From a virus: a DNA stretch of 23,202 nt. The translations under genes and the position numbers were made by a program. This document shows positions 9,384-21,532 of the stretch, piece by piece; position 1 is the stretch's first letter; every line of letters starts with the position of its first letter. The notes under the pieces are model-generated. The model was not told where the DNA came from. It ran no database searches and saw only the letters and a program-made list of their open reading frames with translations. The stretch lies in IMG/VR virus record IMGVR_UViG_3300022871_000817, positions 1 through 23,202 of that record. One strand, 5' to 3'.

Positions 9384-9526
9384 ATCGCCCACATCTCTTT
9401 AGGTATTAACATTGATTTGAATTTTTGATAATTATCAAAAATTTCTTTATCAATCATCATTGCCATTTTTGCTGCCATTTTATTAAAAATTTCATCTTCA
9501 ATTGCTTTAATTGCTTCTATTTTCAT
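9380..9526 (-). CDS. Small helical protein of 48 residues
   Basis: This short gene is supported by its signals. AGAGGAAATGT lies just before the ATG at 9526. The TGA overlaps the methyltransferase ATG (ATGA). Its 5' end overlaps the stop region of the upstream glycosyltransferase. The product is an amphipathic Met- and Lys-rich helix (MKIEAIKAIEDEIFNKMAAK) with a tail ending in PKEMWAI. I do not recognise it. It may serve mainly to couple translation through the block. Confidence 0.55.
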   Translation of the reverse strand: MKIEAIKAIEDEIFNKMAAKMAMMIDKEIFDNYQKFKSMLIPKEMWAI

Positions 9527-10193
9527 ACATTTCCTCTAATTTCTTTTTATATTTTTTAATTCGTTCTTTTTTAATACCATATTCAGTCTTATGTGCTGAC
9601 CATATCATAGAATCATCTTTTTCTAAATGGTCTAAATATTGTCTGCTTACATCAAGCCATTTTAGACCTTTTGCTATATACAATTCACAATATCTTGCTA
9701 ATGATGGTTGATCTTTATTAAAATAATATACTTGATCATCAAGAAGATATTTAGACCATTTTCTTAATAAATTCATACTCATGGCTGTAGGTCTTACTGC
9801 TAAAAATCCACCAGCTATTTTATTCTTATTAATTCTAATACCGGCCATATCAAAGTCTTTCATTTGACTTTTCAAAACATCTATAGGATTTATTAACATC
9901 ATATCTGTATCAATCATAATATGTAAATCATCAGGAAAAAGTTTAATTGTTTCCATAAGATATTTTGCTTTATTTTCTATAATTTGCCATGCCATCTGAA
10001 CATTTATTATATCTTTTATATCATGCTCTATAACAAATGTATTACTATATTCTATTAATTTTTTGCTTTCCTCAAATTTTATATTAATATAATGAGCAGC
10101 AATAATAGCTGTAGGCTCTATTATATTAATGGATTTTATAAGAACATTTGCCCACTCCATATAATCTTTATTAAAATAAATTGTAAATGTCAT
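9507..10193 (-). CDS. GT-A fold glycosyltransferase (GT8-like)
   Basis: This 228-residue protein has a metal-binding DxD in HIMIDTDMMLINPID (about 91-105), preceded by a helix that packs on the nucleotide site and followed by FDMAGIRINKNKIAGGFLAVRP. That block is typical of GT8-like transferases that retain the anomeric configuration. The DQPSLARY segment and the final IWSAHKTEYG carry the acceptor-side and second metal-binding histidines in such families (His here in SAH). Donor and acceptor are unknown. The ATG overlaps the stop of the GT4 gene (ATGA). Confidence 0.75.
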   Translation of the reverse strand: MTFTIYFNKDYMEWANVLIKSINIIEPTAIIAAHYINIKFEESKKLIEYSNTFVIEHDIKDIINVQMAWQIIENKAKYLMETIKLFPDDLHIMIDTDMMLINPIDVLKSQMKDFDMAGIRINKNKIAGGFLAVRPTAMSMNLLRKWSKYLLDDQVYYFNKDQPSLARYCELYIAKGLKWLDVSRQYLDHLEKDDSMIWSAHKTEYGIKKERIKKYKKKLEEMYENRSN

Positions 10194-11113
10194 AATAAAT
10201 CCTTCATAAAATTAGTATATTGTGTAGCCATATACTTTATTGTTAATTGTTTAGGTATAATAACTCTTGGTCTATCTTTATAAACATCCGTTATAGCATT
10301 TAATATTAATTGTGATGTAGTATCGGATATTACATTATATTCATCTCTATAAGGATAACACGGCTGTATATTTTGCTCTTCACCACTACATGATATACAC
10401 CCCTTTGTAATATTAACCATTTCTGTAGCCCCGCCACATGCATTAGTCGTTATAACAGGTACACCAGCTCCTATAGCTTCAACTACTGTATTAGGACATG
10501 AATCTTTTTTTGATAAATGAATTGATAAATCACCAATTCTCCAAACGGGTTTCATTTCATTTTCATTAAGATGACCATAATATATAATACTAGGATGGTC
10601 ATATTTTTTATTTTGTATTGTATCACCTAATATATGAAGTCTGGCATCTTTATGTAATTTATGAAATATTATAAATAAATCAATAATTTCTTTAAGTCTT
10701 TTATGTCGCCTCCATTTAGATGATACAATAATATTAAAGTTATTTGTATCAATATGCTTACCGCACCACATGTTATCTACACCATTATAAATAACAGATG
10801 TTTTTGCATTAAAATTTCTGGGTGATAAATACTTTTCACACATTTTTTTAGAAAAATTGCTCTGATATATTACACCATTAGCAATATAATGTGATTTTGA
10901 TATCAATAAATTTCTTTTATTATAATCAGTATCATTATCATAATATATACCATCAAGACGTAATACTTTAGGTACATTAGACTGTTGAATAAATTTAATA
11001 AAAGATAAATGAATATCACCTTTGATAGTTATTTGATGGCCATCAGATTTCCAATAAGGTAACATTCTTTTTATTACCACATGCTCTTTACCATGATCTA
11101 TAGATATATTCAC
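10190..11113 (-). CDS. GT4-family glycosyltransferase
   Basis: This 307-residue GT-B enzyme is shorter than usual (350-400), mostly through a reduced N-terminal domain. The N-terminal domain ends in TSVIYNGVDNMW (about 103-114). The C-terminal nucleotide-sugar domain has IIVSSKWRRHKRLKEIIDLF, LHILGD, and SIHLSKKDSCPNTVVEAIGAG then VPVITTNACGG (about 205-238), the E-x7-E type loop of GT4 (PNTVVEAIGAGVPV). The start codon is GTG at 11113, overlapping the end of the broken nuclease relic (GTGA). The next ATG lies further in. A retaining transferase acting on a nucleotide-activated sugar is likely; the sugar cannot be told. Confidence 0.85.
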   Translation of the reverse strand: MNISIDHGKEHVVIKRMLPYWKSDGHQITIKGDIHLSFIKFIQQSNVPKVLRLDGIYYDNDTDYNKRNLLISKSHYIANGVIYQSNFSKKMCEKYLSPRNFNAKTSVIYNGVDNMWCGKHIDTNNFNIIVSSKWRRHKRLKEIIDLFIIFHKLHKDARLHILGDTIQNKKYDHPSIIYYGHLNENEMKPVWRIGDLSIHLSKKDSCPNTVVEAIGAGVPVITTNACGGATEMVNITKGCISCSGEEQNIQPCYPYRDEYNVISDTTSQLILNAITDVYKDRPRVIIPKQLTIKYMATQYTNFMKDLL

Positions 11114-11341
11114 TTAATAAATTCCTTAATATTATTAATACATTTATTTTTAACATCTAACCAGTCTTGCTCTTCTATTACTAATAAATCTATTCCTTTA
11201 TTTAAGCATTGTAAAATTTTCTGTTGATCTTTATATTTACTATATTTTGAACTATGCCACCACACCATTATATTCAATTGCTTTATTAAGACTTGGCATC
11301 CAAAGATCTAATTCTAAATTCCATCCTGTTTTTGGATTCAT
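11110..11341 (-). pseudogene. Frameshifted relic of a phage-type (Vsr-like) endonuclease
   Basis: Two short frames join into one recognisable sequence. The first starts at ATG 11341 (overlapping the upstream stop, TAATG) and reads TGWNLELDLWMPSLNKAIEYNG before a stop. The second, shifted frame reads WWHSSKYSKYKDQQKILQCL, then NKGIDLLVIEEQDWLDVKNK, to a TGA at 11110. Together they match the pattern 'ELDIYIPxLxxAIEYNGxYWHS...C...GIxLIxIxExxW' of free-standing phage nucleases related to homing endonucleases. Restoring 2 nt in the TGGTGTGGTGG tract re-joins them. The usual N-terminal domain is missing, so it is truncated as well as frameshifted. Confidence 0.7.
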
Positions 11342-12834
11342 TATTTTTTTCTTTTTAATATTTTATATCGTACTTTATTTTTAATTAGCTTTTTACATTT
11401 TGATTGCTCTTCTGGCAATATTTTAGATAAATTATTTGGATTTTCACTGTTATAAATATACAACACATCTTTTATAAATCTTATTTTATTAGATGGGGTC
11501 ATTTCTAAAATTGGGTACATCAAACATCTATCATAACTATATTTAATGAATTTTTTATCATCATCTTTAAAATCCCTTTGATCAATATTCATATATAAAA
11601 AAGCTTTAAATGTTTGCAAATGTGTATAAATCCATTTAGATTTTCTAAATGATCTATTAATTATTTTAACAGCTTGTTTTGGATTTTTTGGTAAAAATTT
11701 AGGATTGTTTAATCTACTATATTTTAAACTACCATAAGTTACCCAGCATTTTTTCTTTTCATATATATCATTAAGTTTACTTAGTACTGTGTTATCAGCA
11801 AGCCAATCATCAAGATCTAAAACAACTATTATACTTTCATCATCAATAATATTAGGTAATAAATAATCAATAGAATTTGCTAACCATTTTCTATTTTTTG
11901 CTGATTTATATGATATAACTTTATCATCTTTATATGTCATTATTTTTTCATAAGTGTCATCAGTACTGTGATCATCTACAATAATATGTGTATAATTTTT
12001 ATAAGTTTGATTTTGCACACTTTCAATATTTTTAATAGCATAATCTTTACAATTATATCCAGAACTAAAAATAATAAAATGATTACCTTTTACCTTTTCT
12101 TCATCTTTATATTTCAATATATCATATTTTTTTCTATTTTGATACCAACTACAATATTTTATTTGATCATTTCTATTAACAGTTTTATCATTTAACTCAT
12201 GAATATTATATACATATGAAATATCTTTAATTTGACGAATTTTAACCGCTGGCGTCATTTGTAATATAGGATAACCTATAGCATAATCATAACTTGTTGT
12301 TGGATATTCTTTGTCAGGTCCTAAAAGATCTTTTTTATCAATATTATCCCATATAAACGATTTAAATGTTCTTAATGCCCAAAATTTCCATCTATACGTT
12401 TCAAATTTCTTTTTTGTTAATTCTTCAGAATTATAACCATTAAAATTGTTTTTTCGTACTTCACCTGTACTTCTAACTAATGTACCATAAGTTACCCAGC
12501 ATTTTTTCTTTTCATATATATCATTAAGCCCCGTAAAAACTTTTTTATGCACAAGCCAATCATCAAGATCTATTATTGTAATAACATCATATGCGCTGTC
12601 AGTCTTAATATACTTTATAGCATTATATACCCAGCCTTTGTTATCTTTATTGTGATGTACTATAGTCTTATCATCTTTATATTTCATTATTTCATCAAAA
12701 GTACCATCAGTACTGGCATCATCTACTATAATATGAATATAATTTTGATAAGTCTGTTTTTGTACACTTAACATATGTTTTTTTATATAATCTTTACAAT
12801 TATATCCTGAACTAAAAATAACCAATTTTTGCAT
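11341..12834 (-). CDS. Double-domain GT2 glycosyltransferase
   Basis: This 497-residue protein is made of two GT2 (GT-A) modules in tandem. Module 1 (about 1-245) has FSSGYNCKDYIKKHMLSVQ, HIIVDDASTDGT and the DxD site DLDD at 89-92. Module 2 (about 252-497) repeats FSSGYNCKDY, HIIVDDHSTDDT and DLDD at 340-343. Each module ends with the same LRTFKSF/LQTFKAF and 'YPILxMTP...IRxIKDxxYxYN' blocks. Both catalytic sites look intact. A third homologous module is the next gene upstream, so three copies arose by duplication. Two-module GT2 proteins often alternate two linkages in one polymer, which is possible here. Confidence 0.85.
   Translation of the reverse strand: MQKLVIFSSGYNCKDYIKKHMLSVQKQTYQNYIHIIVDDASTDGTFDEIMKYKDDKTIVHHNKDNKGWVYNAIKYIKTDSAYDVITIIDLDDWLVHKKVFTGLNDIYEKKKCWVTYGTLVRSTGEVRKNNFNGYNSEELTKKKFETYRWKFWALRTFKSFIWDNIDKKDLLGPDKEYPTTSYDYAIGYPILQMTPAVKIRQIKDISYVYNIHELNDKTVNRNDQIKYCSWYQNRKKYDILKYKDEEKVKGNHFIIFSSGYNCKDYAIKNIESVQNQTYKNYTHIIVDDHSTDDTYEKIMTYKDDKVISYKSAKNRKWLANSIDYLLPNIIDDESIIVVLDLDDWLADNTVLSKLNDIYEKKKCWVTYGSLKYSRLNNPKFLPKNPKQAVKIINRSFRKSKWIYTHLQTFKAFLYMNIDQRDFKDDDKKFIKYSYDRCLMYPILEMTPSNKIRFIKDVLYIYNSENPNNLSKILPEEQSKCKKLIKNKVRYKILKRKK
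11731..11775 (-). repeat. 45-nt perfect direct repeat, copy 1 (GT2 module 2)
   Basis: It is identical over 45 nt to 12484-12528. It encodes LNDIYEKKKCWVTYG in module 2 of the double GT2 protein (residues 354-368). The surrounding modules have diverged much more than this block. Confidence 0.95.
12484..12528 (-). repeat. 45-nt perfect direct repeat, copy 2 (GT2 module 1)
   Basis: This is the partner of 11731-11775, 753 nt (251 codons) away, so the repeat keeps reading frame. It encodes residues 103-117 of module 1. Confidence 0.95.
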
Positions 12835-12836
12835 AA

Positions 12837-13607
12837 TTAACCTCTTATTAACGATTTATATTTATTTTTTGAACGTATGATGTCTCTGTTTATCTCCTGT
12901 TCTTTTCTATTAATTTTTTCAACCTGTAATGGATTAGAATTATTATATACATATAATGCATTAGGAATAAAACTTATATGATCTGGACTTGACATTTCAA
13001 GCATTGGTATTAAAATTGCTTGATCATAACATGACTTAAAATATTCTCCTTTATTATCTTTTAAATCATTGATATTATTATCAAAAAGAATCATTTTAGC
13101 ATTAAGTTCATTCCATAAAAAAGCTTTAAATGTTCTAAGATGCGTAAATGACCATACAGATTGTCTAAATAATTTATTTTTGATAATATCATCTGTATAT
13201 ACTGGTATCCATGTAGATAGTCTTAATGACATAGTATCAATAAACCTACTATAAGTCATCCAACAATCTGTTTTATTATAACAATTATTAACGATTTCTA
13301 AAACTTTTTTATGTGGTAACCAATCATCAAGATCAACAATAACAATAATATCTTCTTCATTAATTATATGATCATCTAAATATTTTAAAGCATTTCTTAT
13401 CCATTTGATATTGTTATCATTTCTATATATTATAGTATTATCATCTATATATTTACAACCCTTTTCAAAAGTACCATCAGTACTAGCATCATCTATTATT
13501 ATATGTGTATAATTTTTGTAAGTCTGATTCTGTATACTTTTTATATGTTTTTCTATATAATCAAAGCAGTTATAGCCAGCACTAAAAATAATAAATTTGT
13601 TATTCAT
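12837..13607 (-). CDS. GT2 glycosyltransferase, third homologous module
   Basis: This 256-residue protein has one GT2 domain, closely related to both modules of the next gene: FIIFSAGYNCFDYIEKHIKS, HIIIDDASTDGTF, VDLDDWLPHKK (DxD) and LRTFKAFLW. It ends in 'LIPMLEMSSPDHISFIPNALYVYN', matching the same end block. I chose the ATG at 13607 over the one at 13643 because the homologous proteins begin just before the FSSGYN strand. The upstream gene then overlaps by 8 nt. The gap to the double-module gene is 2 nt. The tandem arrangement suggests stepwise assembly of one glycan. Confidence 0.85.
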   Translation of the reverse strand: MNNKFIIFSAGYNCFDYIEKHIKSIQNQTYKNYTHIIIDDASTDGTFEKGCKYIDDNTIIYRNDNNIKWIRNALKYLDDHIINEEDIIVIVDLDDWLPHKKVLEIVNNCYNKTDCWMTYSRFIDTMSLRLSTWIPVYTDDIIKNKLFRQSVWSFTHLRTFKAFLWNELNAKMILFDNNINDLKDNKGEYFKSCYDQAILIPMLEMSSPDHISFIPNALYVYNNSNPLQVEKINRKEQEINRDIIRSKNKYKSLIRG

Positions 13608-14268
13608 CTTCCATCCATGTATTCCAAATTTTTCTTCGTTCATCAGGTATTATTATTTTTGATGTTTTTAGTGGAATTATTGCTCCAGCATGAGTTCTTA
13701 TATTATGTTGTGATTGTGTTGTTCCAGCACGAGTTCTTATATTAGGCTGTGGTGTAACTTGTCTAATATTAGGCTGTAGTGTATTATTTTTATTTTTAAT
13801 AGCATCTAAATAAATATATTCATTTCTAATAATAGGAACAAATACCATATTACCGCCTATCATTTTAACAAGTTCTTTAATAACCATAAAAAAATCAGAA
13901 GTAGGTCTTAAATCTCTTAATGTTCTAAAATTCTTTTTATTAAAGCATATTATATCATCTTTTTGCATATTAGGTATTGTTGATTTTACAAATCCATCAT
14001 TTATAGGATCATCATGTCTTCTAGCATACACAATATCTTTATCATATTCTTTTTTAAAATTATCTATAAAACCATCATCAAGATCTTGTGATAAAGTATT
14101 AATAAGTATTATTTTATTAAATTTGGCTCCTCTTATAATACCATCTAATTTAGATATTGGATATTTTGGAATGTTCTCAATTATAAGTTGATCATCTGAA
14201 GATACCTGTTCTTTAATTGTTCTTAAAAGTCCTTCATTTTGTTTAGTTGGTACTATTATTGTAAACAT
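13600..14268 (-). CDS. Putative GT-A-like protein with a short C-terminal repeat region
   Basis: This 222-residue protein begins MFTIIVPTKQNEGLLRTIKE, the usual first strand and helix of a GT2-type domain. It then lacks a clear DDxSxD and has only an SQDLDDG motif near residue 60, so catalysis is doubtful. Later sequence (DIICFNKKNFRTLRDLRPTS) resembles the acceptor side of small phage transferases. Residues about 163-195 contain an imperfect repeat (QPNIR-x, QPNIRTRAG, QHNIRTHAG). The remaining tail is IPDERRKIWNTWMEDE. It starts directly after the zinc-ribbon gene stop (TAAATG), with AAGGA upstream. Confidence 0.5.
   Translation of the reverse strand: MFTIIVPTKQNEGLLRTIKEQVSSDDQLIIENIPKYPISKLDGIIRGAKFNKIILINTLSQDLDDGFIDNFKKEYDKDIVYARRHDDPINDGFVKSTIPNMQKDDIICFNKKNFRTLRDLRPTSDFFMVIKELVKMIGGNMVFVPIIRNEYIYLDAIKNKNNTLQPNIRQVTPQPNIRTRAGTTQSQHNIRTHAGAIIPLKTSKIIIPDERRKIWNTWMEDE
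13684..13776 (-). repeat. Imperfect in-frame repeat encoding (Q)PNIR-x-x-AG units
   Basis: Units of 27 nt at 13684-13710 and 13723-13749 differ at three positions and are spaced 39 nt (13 codons) apart. A shorter third copy ends near 13776. The spacing keeps the frame, giving a variable linker in the C-terminal part of the GT-like protein. Confidence 0.8.
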
Positions 14269-17624: not shown

Positions 17625-19393
17625 TTAATTACACTTACTTTCACCACAATTTTGACAAACCTTACAACCCTCTATTAATATTACAGAATATGTACCACAT
17701 TTATTACACAGTTCTTTATTATTCGGTACATTATCAAATTCACAATTCAAATAATATCTTTGAAGCAATTTAGCTATACCATCTGGTATAGATAATATTT
17801 GTGTAGGTTTTTTATCAGTAACTTCAAATCTATGCCATGCTGTTCTATCAGAATTAATACCTATCAATGTATCTACTAACGCCTGAACAGGTACATTATT
17901 TTGTAAAGATATAGACATTGATCTACCAAGAGATTCAGTAAACACATTAAATAATTGTCCTGATTTACCCATATTCATAAATATTTCAACAGGTTTACCA
18001 TTATGAGTTGATATTGTAACATACAATTTCCCATTACCTGTTTCAAGTACATGAACATTAGCTGATAATTTAGATGGTCTATTAAAAAATGATATAGCTT
18101 CTTTCTTTTTAGAATCAAATGTTATCGGTTGAAATTTTTTAGAACCATCTCTATATACAGTAACACCTTTAAGACCTCTTTCATAAGCATATTTATATAA
18201 ATCACTTATTTCTTCTATTGTTATATCTTTAGGAAGATTTATAGTACTTGATATAGCAGATGATACATATTTTTGTAATTCTGATTGCATATCAATTCTA
18301 TCTTTATATTTAATATCATGTGCTGTAACAAATACATCTCTAACATCTTTTGGAATCCCTCGAATACCTTTAAGTGAACCATTATTTAATGCTATTTTTT
18401 CTAACAGTGTATCATTATACCATTCTTCATCAGAATATTTTGAAAAAATCTTATTAGTAATATTCATTGTACCACCATCTATAAGGTTCTTTTGAAACAC
18501 AAGTCCAAAGCAAGGCTCCATACCATATGAACAATCACAAGATAAAGCAGTTGTGCCAGTTGGTGCACAAGTTGTATGTTGTACATTACGAAGTCCATAT
18601 TTTCTTACCTTTGACATTATATTTTCATCATTATCAGTAAGATCCTTAATAATTTCTATAACATCATCTTTAACAATATCATAATCAGCAAAAGTACCGC
18701 GTTCATTAGCAAGGTCAGCACTGCATTCTATGCAAGCATTAGTTATTGTTTTCATTATACGACCTGAAAAAACTTTACCATCAACACTATCATATCGTAA
18801 ATCTAATTGATATAATACATCTGATAAACCCATCATACCAATACCTACAGGTCGATATTTTGTAACCATTTCTTTAAATCTATTATCTGGATGATCCATA
18901 ACATCAATAATATTATCCATAAATCTCATAATTTTATAAGAGGTTTTATACAAACCATCAAAATCAAATTTACCATTTTTATAAAACTTTGATACATTAA
19001 TAGAACTTAAATTACATGAAGTGTATGGCCATAAAAATTGTTCCAGTTTGTTCTTTCTAAAAGTTTTTTATCTTTTAGTTCTATTGATTCGTTTTATCAA
19101 TAGTTCGGCATATCTTTTCATTATTAAAATGTCCCGGCCTCTTGGTGATTTATATTCTCATATTGAGTTTCAATCCACTATGCTCTGCCCCTGACTATTC
19201 TTTTATAAATAGCCTTCGGTTCGGATTCCCATCACAGGGTTCCCGCTTAATTCCGAGATGATTATACTGAGGCAAACTATTCACCACAGTTGTGTATTAA
19301 TATATTATTAGCAAAAAAATTATGATTTTTAAATGTTGTTAAATCATAAACATCTTCGTTGTTTACATGTTTTTTACTTATTAATCTACCCAT
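17625..19393 (-). CDS. nrdJ: C-terminal split-intein half fused to NrdJ C-terminal part, interrupted by a group I intron
   Basis: Exons are 19393-19283 and 19043-17625, joining in frame to a 509-residue precursor. Residues 1-35 are the intein half (ending ANNILIHN), then Cys-Gly, then after the intron EQFLWPYTSCNLSSINVSKF and the rest of a class II ribonucleotide reductase. That part has CAPTGTTALSC (substrate loop), SSTINLPKDI and a C-terminal Cys cluster (CNKCG, GCKVCQNCGESKC). The second redox Cys lies 11 residues after the +1 Cys, as between the radical and redox Cys of class II enzymes. The ATG at 19393 overlaps the endonuclease stop, with AAAGGAGAA 8-9 nt upstream. Without RNA splicing, translation stops at TAG 19279-19277 after 38 residues. 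A TTG at 18953 is not a real start. Confidence 0.9.
19044..19282 (-). mobile_element. Group I self-splicing intron, 239 nt, no ORF
   Basis: The 5' exon ends in CTGTGGT. Its U pairs as U-G with intron GCCTCAG (P1: six pairs, one U-U mismatch), and intron GCCTCAGTATAA resembles the start of the T4 td intron. Core helices fit: P3 TCTCGG/CCGGGA, P4 CGGG/TCCG, P5 CCC/GGG, P6 GGCTATT/AATAGTC, P7 GGCA/TGCC within the S element AAGATATGCC, P8 CATT/AATG, and a long P9 CTATTGAT/ATCAATAG. An extra pair of P7.1/P7.2-type stems lies between P7 and P3', as in subgroup IA. The last intron base is G19044. Excision restores the conserved CGEQ reading frame. Confidence 0.9.
19289..19393 (-). mobile_element. 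C-terminal half of a split intein (35 residues)
   Basis: The sequence starts MGRLISKKHVNNEDVYDLTT and ends in FFANNILIHN followed by Cys. These are intein block F (EDVYDLTT...HNFFANN) and block G (ILIHN-C), with the terminal Asn and +1 Cys nucleophile in place. The +1 Cys is the reductase's own radical Cys in NPCGE. Together with the 100-residue N half it gives a 135-residue mini-intein with no room for an endonuclease domain. Confidence 0.95.
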
Positions 19394-20449: not shown

Positions 20450-21532
20450 TTATGAAATGTAATTACACATAATATTATCTTTATCTGTTAAATCTTTAGC
20501 TTCAACATATCCTCTGTTTTTAGTATAAATTTTATGGTCAGGTGTACATTTTAATGTAAAAATATTATTATTTTCTTCAATTTTTAATTCTATTATATCT
20601 ACATTTTCTTTAGTTTTTCCTACAAATTCAATATTTTCAAATTCAACTATATCATTTTTAATATTATATGTTAATATTTCATCTTTAATATTAACATTCT
20701 TTATAGGAATATCGCCTCTATTAGTATTTACTATTGTATCTCCAACAATACATGGATTACTTGATTGAATAAGACATAACTTCTTTAAAACATTATATTT
20801 ATTAACAGTATCAATAAATATAACACCAGGATCGGCAGATTTCCATGACATTTCAGATATTTTATCCCACACTTTTTTTGGATTTATCTCACCAACTTTT
20901 TTCATACCATAAGGTGATAAAAGATCATATGGTATGTTATCTTTTAAGCATTCCATGAATTTATCATCAATAACTACTGATATATTCATATTTTTTAATC
21001 TACCATCAATTTCTTTACATGCTATAAATTCAAGAATATCAGGATGCCATATAGGCATAACACACATTATAGCTGCTCTCCTTGCTCTACCACCACTCTT
21101 TGTAGTCTCACCAACAGAATCAAATAATGACATAAAACTTATAGGGCCTGAACTTTTACCTTTAGGTACATTTTCTGAATCACCATCATATATAGAAGCA
21201 TTATTTTCTCTTAAATTACCTACAGGTATACCAACACCTGCGCCATATTGAAAAATTTTTCTTGATGTATTAGCAACATCATATATACTATCCATTGTAT
21301 CTTCAAGTCCTAAAACAAAACAGGCTGAATATAATTTCTTTTTTGTTCCAGCATTAAAAAATACAGGAGTATTACATCTCCAAATATTTTGTTTTAACAG
21401 GTTATAAACTTCCTTTTTTTCTTCTTCATTTGTTGCAAATTCTTTAGATACTCTTTTAAAAGTACCATCTATAGTTTCATCACCCAATTTATATAATTTA
21501 TCAAAAATCTTTACTGCATTATCACTCAACAT
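20450..21532 (-). CDS. nrdJ: N-terminal part of class II ribonucleotide reductase fused to a split-intein N half
   Basis: This makes deoxyribonucleotides using adenosylcobalamin. The 260-residue extein is the first third of NrdJ, with CNTPVFFNAGT, SACFVLGLEDTM (redox Cys71), FQYGAGVGIPVG, KSSGPISFM and GGRARRAAIM. It ends in IFIDTVNKYNVLKKLCLIQS, SNP. In an unbroken gene NPCGEQ would follow; here the intein half begins at that Cys. Spliced to the C-terminal protein the enzyme would have 260 + 474 = 734 residues, normal for NrdJ. The start is ATG 21532 with AAAGAGG upstream, 19 nt after a hairpin terminator. No class I (NrdAB) genes are in the window. Confidence 0.95.
   Translation of the reverse strand: MLSDNAVKIFDKLYKLGDETIDGTFKRVSKEFATNEEEKKEVYNLLKQNIWRCNTPVFFNAGTKKKLYSACFVLGLEDTMDSIYDVANTSRKIFQYGAGVGIPVGNLRENNASIYDGDSENVPKGKSSGPISFMSLFDSVGETTKSGGRARRAAIMCVMPIWHPDILEFIACKEIDGRLKNMNISVVIDDKFMECLKDNIPYDLLSPYGMKKVGEINPKKVWDKISEMSWKSADPGVIFIDTVNKYNVLKKLCLIQSSNPCIVGDTIVNTNRGDIPIKNVNIKDEILTYNIKNDIVEFENIEFVGKTKENVDIIELKIEENNNIFTLKCTPDHKIYTKNRGYVEAKDLTDKDNIMCNYIS
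20453..20752 (-). mobile_element. N-terminal half of a split intein (100 residues)
   Basis: It begins at Cys261 of the upstream reading frame, right after SSNP. Block A is CIVGDTIVNTNRGDIPIKNV. Block B is LKCTPDHKIYTKNRGYVEAK, with the T-x-x-H motif (TPDH). The tail LTDKDNIMCNYIS ends in a stop codon. It closely resembles the N half I recall for the metagenomic NrdJ-type split inteins (TPDHxxYTKNRGYVxAxxLTDDD). Cys1 is present, so N-S acyl shift should be possible. Confidence 0.95.

Follow-up and report, generated by a model that had tools for sequence, protein, structure and literature searches.

The 23.2-kb virus record IMGVR_UViG_3300022871_000817 (23,202 nucleotides, analyzed at its full length and hereafter called the window) contains nrdJ, the gene for class II ribonucleotide reductase (RNR), which is read from the minus strand, as are all window features described below, and is interrupted at the active-site motif NP|CG|EQ. 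The open reading frame (ORF) that starts at 21532 encodes the N-terminal extein (exon 1, 20753-21532), which is identified by the Pfam profiles Ribonuc_red_lgN/lgC and by alignment with the intact NrdJ of L005 (L numbers denote comparison loci) and ends with SSNP. From there, the frame passes straight into the N-terminal half of a split intein (IntN, 20450-20752, starting with CIVGDT; CIVGDTIVNTNRG...DNIMCNYIS), which has its own stop codon at 20450. A separate ORF of 333 amino acids located between the intein halves (20387-19386) is a free-standing homing endonuclease gene (HEG). A third reading frame opens with an ATG at 19393, preceded by AAGGAG, and encodes the C-terminal half of the intein (IntC, 19289-19393, MGRLISKK...NHNFFANNILIHN), which terminates with FFANNILIHN (last base 19289) and is identified by its sequence, by Pfam, by the match to the NrdJ-1 structure and by equivalent halves in L003 and L004; the same frame continues through Cys-Gly and Glu (GAA) to a TAG stop. 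The Cys-Gly of NPCGEQ is encoded by a six-nucleotide exon, TGT GGT (19283-19288), which is read directly from the sequence and whose frame agrees with that of intact alleles. It is followed by an ORF-less intron of 239 nucleotides (19044-19282) and then by the C-terminal extein (exon 2, 17625-19043), which begins with GAACAATTT at 19043 (translation EQFLWPYTSCNL), matches the Pfam profiles Ribonuc_red_lgC and TSCPD, aligns with other NrdJ proteins and carries a Zn-binding Cys motif at its end. Without 19282-19044, the joined frame reads NP-CGEQFLWPYTSCNL, in agreement with intact relatives (e.g., NPCGEQPLWPFNACNL in L005).

This anatomy can be described with high confidence. The two closest contigs, which come from other metagenomes, are 99.9% identical to the window, so the locus is no accident of assembly. 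A split intein breaks up a conserved enzyme gene here, and a free-standing endonuclease gene occupies the space between its two halves; this is the layout of the fractured genes of the Dassa type, and fractured genes with split inteins are known (Dassa et al. 2009, cited in PMC3653736).

A search of the window with the Rfam model RF00028 yields no match to a group I intron. This result is uninformative because the same search is also blind to the proven T4 td intron (L210, NC_000866), which is missed at E<=1, and the T4 nrdB intron scores only 35.7 bits against a cut-off of 50; a match to RF00028 is not a defining feature of the group I class. Given this lack of power, a calibrated covariance model (R1) was built from seven related introns of other viruses, with the window excluded, located in DNA gyrase, RNA polymerase, terminase and other loci (phages R1-37, VB_ZK_P1, ACP1, AhC3_1 and LIS04, and two IMG/VR contigs), using a hand-written P3-P8 structure. 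In this structure, 94.5% of cells pair and 23 pairs are changed on both sides among the seven introns; none of the shuffles or slid registers comes near it in pairing or covariation score. Within the model set, helices P3, P4, P7, P7.1 and P7.2 are paired to 100% and show covariation, and a P3-P8 core with the P7 pseudoknot is present. R1 detects the window intron with 135.5 bits (E 9.6e-35) and those of L003 and L004 with E 7e-39 and 7e-36, respectively, and finds no match in the empty allele L005; the isolated fold of the window intron has a z-score of -3.35. Phage group IA introns are, then, largely invisible to standard Rfam annotation, and the outcome named at the outset as refuting the intron, a covariance search that fails to find a group I core, arises literally with RF00028 but not with R1.

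The intron (19282-19044) begins with GAATAG and ends with AAACTG; the internal guide sequence (IGS) GCCTCAG occupies 19273-19267, the core 19261-19103, and the stop codon TAG 19279-19277. P1 pairs CUGUGGU with GCCUCAG, with a U-G pair marking the splice site and a single U-U mismatch, and reaches into the terminal Asn codon of the intein by a C-G and an A-U pair. A terminal G precedes the 3' exon (...CTG^GAACAA), and the frame is restored in all composite alleles. The core match, the covariation in the model and P1 identify the element as a group I intron, IA-like with P7.1/P7.2, that is predicted to be self-splicing. The initial annotation, made from the window sequence alone, had placed a group I intron two codons after the intein, with P1 drawing on TGT GGT and the last intein codon, and had noted that a gene break coincides with two modes of splicing; all of this is borne out, including the exact junctions and the six-nucleotide exon. 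The early TAG that it placed six to nine nucleotides after the intein is there as well, only further on: the frame is TGT GGT GAA TAG, so that the stop starts from the tenth nucleotide after the intein.

The two intein halves taken together match the NrdJ-1 split intein (PDB 8ubs/9omb, E 3e-27), and the Pfam Intein_splicing match to IntN is below the Pfam cut-off. The junction residues are all present, namely Cys1 (C|IVGDT), the terminal His-Asn and Cys+1 (IHN|C). By these features, the intein is of the NrdJ-1 split type, inserted before the active-site Cys, and is predicted to trans-splice.

The initial annotation knew of no other case of such close nesting together with a gene break. The juxtaposition is in fact found again in six other, diverged viral nrdJ loci (L003, L004, L018, L171=L172, L305 and L307), with at least two intron types. 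L003 and L004, whose nrdJ genes are about 60% identical, share the split intein, the HEG and the intron with the window, all of them at identical codon positions. In L018 and L171=L172, which represent another nrdJ subfamily, a different intron directly follows the split intein, and its removal gives NPCLEQS, exactly as in 77 intact relatives. Neither R1 nor Rfam matches this intron; it can be classified as group I-like, judging from P7-like R/S motifs and a P1 with a U-G splice-site pair. The HEG of L171 (4000-5032) contains four in-frame stops, at least two of them at Trp positions of its relatives, next to an intact intein and intron, which is either decay or local recoding. L305 is a composite with an HEG remnant, and L307 a composite without an HEG; the single nrdJ of L307 (7624-12466) additionally contains several inteins beyond the intein-intron pair. 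A similar arrangement, with the order reversed, is found in the terminase large subunit gene of Listeria phage LIS04 (L200, 1552-3270), where a homologous intron, whose P1 loop contains an endonuclease ORF, comes first and is separated by four codons (RDIF) from a split intein inserted at the Walker B-like motif RDIF|C; Bacillus phage SP-15 has the intein-only allele of this site, GLGRDIF|C. Adjacency as a general feature of viral inteins was also considered and rejected, given that, among sampled viral inteins with the C-terminal ending HNFxAN...HNC, not one is closely followed by a stop codon (the shortest run is 50 codons).

All four allele states occur at the nrdJ codons, so that the survey for intein-only and intron-only alleles proposed at the outset recovers both, in addition to empty and double ones. 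Empty alleles are found in L005 and many other loci, intein-only alleles in L029, L042 and L243, and double alleles in the window and the six further viral loci. The intron alone is present in the viral L299=L304, where it is ORF-less, and in two genomes of Bacillota, Aneurinibacillus (L199, 3680-5055) and a second genome of the same family (L297, 1282-2500), where the same active-site codons are occupied by a group I intron that encloses a PD-(D/E)XK-like HEG. A rule that the intron is always accompanied by the intein, which held in two surveys of NrdJ proteins (Fisher p 3e-5, not used as support), is refuted by L199, L297 and L299. In L042 (170-4918), nrdJ is interrupted at three places, the NPC intein being one of them. 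At P1 position -8, the intein alleles have an A-U pair and L199/L297 a C-G pair, the position is mismatched in L299, and the P1 of L305 is ambiguous; this pattern is only suggestive of an adaptation of P1 to the intein codon.

The product of the window HEG appears to combine a PD-(D/E)XK-like N-terminal domain, a NUMOD3-like middle part, zinc-binding Cys pairs and a repeat-like C-terminus. Residues E33, P63-D64 and E78-x-K80 are invariant in 17 homologs; NUMOD3 is detected in 14 of these 17, and the score of the window protein itself for this domain is not significant. The AlphaFold model (pLDDT 85) has its best fold matches in the R2 restriction-like endonuclease, Bax1 and VRR_NUC, all sub-threshold (E > 0.001). 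The window HEG has no match among phage isolates at E 1e-5, and no significant relative in the PDB by sequence. In every locus with readable context, the viral members of this family reside within inteins at the RNR active-site Cys, and in L199 and L297 the same family is found inside a group I intron at exactly the same nrdJ site. Because the family occurs both between intein halves, as in the window, and inside same-site introns, a single endonuclease family appears to act for both kinds of splicing element at one target.

Phylogenetic analysis indicates that these elements move. In the HEG tree, the window, L003 and L004 fall into one clade (96/96), whereas a single clade for the host NrdJs of these three is rejected (approximately unbiased (AU) test, p 1.4e-4), and the window NrdJ groups with the NrdJ of the intein-only L029 (100/99). 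The conflict between the two trees implies that the cassette has moved between nrdJ genes. Sequence identity is 77-87% for the intron, 59-63% for the HEG and 64-71% for the exons. The states of the HEG (intact, interrupted by stops in L171, a remnant in L305 and absent in L307) fit a homing life cycle.

The reading that we favor, with reasonable if not full confidence, is that three parasitic elements are stacked on NP|CG|EQ, where RNA splicing and protein trans-splicing would both operate and the elements would spread by collaborative homing. Several observations weigh against it: the ORF-less intron-only allele L299 demonstrates that the intron can exist without the intein; most inteins that carry this HEG family have no intron; the nuclease fold match of the HEG product falls short of the significance threshold; and the intron is more conserved than the HEG and the exons, which may reflect constraint or a partly separate history. 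The last point, along with the existence of intein-only and intron-only alleles, also agrees with a scenario of independent coincidence, in which the intron and the HEG-bearing intein arrived separately in the part of the gene that is most conserved, without a shared endonuclease or joint movement; inteins and introns are both known to favor conserved active-site codons (PMC2814812). Coincidence deserves serious consideration, but we doubt it given that at least two intron types lie beside split inteins at these codons, that the same HEG family is found in inteins and inside an intron at the same codons, and that the background sample of inteins contains no case of an early stop. The initial annotation had attributed the hot spot to the conservation of active-site DNA; conservation is not the only factor, and a shared endonuclease target is the better explanation because one HEG family occurs in inteins and introns at the same codons.

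Another history would have the HEG first in a same-site group I intron, as in L199 and L297, and later jumping to the intein, with the ORF-less intron as a vertically inherited relic. The intron-borne HEGs of L199 and L297 indeed group with the intein-borne HEG of L026 (98/99 and 82/79), and HEG decay in the composites L171, L305 and L307 is in keeping with such an exchange of carriers. We nevertheless consider it unlikely: the HEG tree has long branches, the window intron retains no trace of an ORF, and the host genes of the composite alleles are not one clade, which makes pure vertical descent improbable. The presence of four insert boundaries within one motif might also point to a dead, decaying pseudogene that is overloaded with insertions and no longer supports splicing. 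This is highly improbable because the exons, the two halves of the intein and the core of the intron all remain intact and are conserved in three genes that are 60% identical, P1 pairs with its own exon in each composite checked except the ambiguous L305, and two near-identical contigs come from other samples.

Under the favored reading of stacked elements, the split intein lies before the Cys, the HEG between its halves breaks the gene into two translation units, and the IA-type intron follows two codons on. Removal of the intron from the mRNA would bring TGTGGT and GAACAA together; the N protein (NrdJ-N with IntN) and the C protein (IntC with NrdJ-C) would be made separately, and the intein halves would then ligate NP to CGEQ through protein trans-splicing. 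Because the unspliced frame ends CGE-stop, intron splicing would have to precede productive translation of the C gene. The original proposal that RNA splicing must come first accordingly stands for the productive enzyme; the unspliced message, however, is still expected to give rise to IntC-CGE, and trans-splicing of this polypeptide with the N half could lead to a dead-end product. The most likely target of the endonuclease is the uninterrupted stretch of active-site codons in the nrdJ of a rival phage, and repair would copy intein, HEG and intron together, a co-conversion amounting to collaborative homing that spans protein and RNA splicing. We lean slightly toward such shared homing, whereby cleavage of bare NPCGEQ DNA and its repair would install the whole cassette. 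A more elaborate version, in which one endonuclease mobilizes the protein-splicing and RNA-splicing elements as one cassette, P1 is adapted to the last intein codon, and the unspliced message acts as a trans-splicing decoy that regulates the reductase, is tentative and, in our view, would go further than is probable.

Elsewhere in the window (9507-13643, minus strand), there are several glycosyltransferase-like ORFs, some of which contain repeated related DNA segments (74-85% identical).

The components of this locus have known counterparts. Like the window, in which IntN and IntC are relatives of NrdJ-1, fractured genes of the Dassa type have an nrdJ broken by a split intein whose halves flank a free-standing endonuclease gene; the window adds a group I intron six nucleotides after the intein, and its endonuclease is PD-(D/E)XK-looking. 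Such fractured genes reportedly involve a Vsr-like endonuclease family. The bnrdE gene of phage SPbeta ('Lightning strikes twice', among the references in PMC3653736) contains both an intron and an intein, and the intein is likewise at the active-site Cys, but they are separated by >400 nucleotides of exon and the intein is unsplit, whereas in the window only 6 nucleotides lie between them, in a broken gene. The introns of the T4 td/nrdB type share with the window intron the P1 to P9 layout, P7.1/P7.2, the U-G splice-site pair and an IGS followed by GUAUAA; unlike them, the window intron encodes no endonuclease and directly adjoins an intein. In the haloarchaeal mcm gene, two self-splicing parasites also occupy close sites, but both are inteins, each with its own endonuclease, and co-homing was inefficient there (PMC10643990). 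Collaborative homing is known from T3/T7-like phages and cyanophage psbA (PMC3984707, PMC10448857); in the window, by contrast, the same site is occupied by a split intein that contains the endonuclease, which would serve two splicing systems.

Thus, fractured nrdJ genes with split inteins, phage group IA introns and collaborative homing were already known, and what is new is the overlap of a split intein and an intron at one active-site target, with a single endonuclease family that would serve both. The literature searched, in which Dassa et al. 2009 is represented by its citation in PMC3653736, yielded no group I intron placed only a few codons from a split intein. These findings suggest that two unrelated kinds of splicing parasite share one landing site. 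The nrdJ locus would be a natural setting in which adjacent codons of one active site are subject to both RNA splicing and protein trans-splicing, and a source of NrdJ-1-like split inteins with a ribozyme-controlled C-extein. With all four allele states available, chance convergence on active-site DNA versus a common endonuclease target becomes a testable question.
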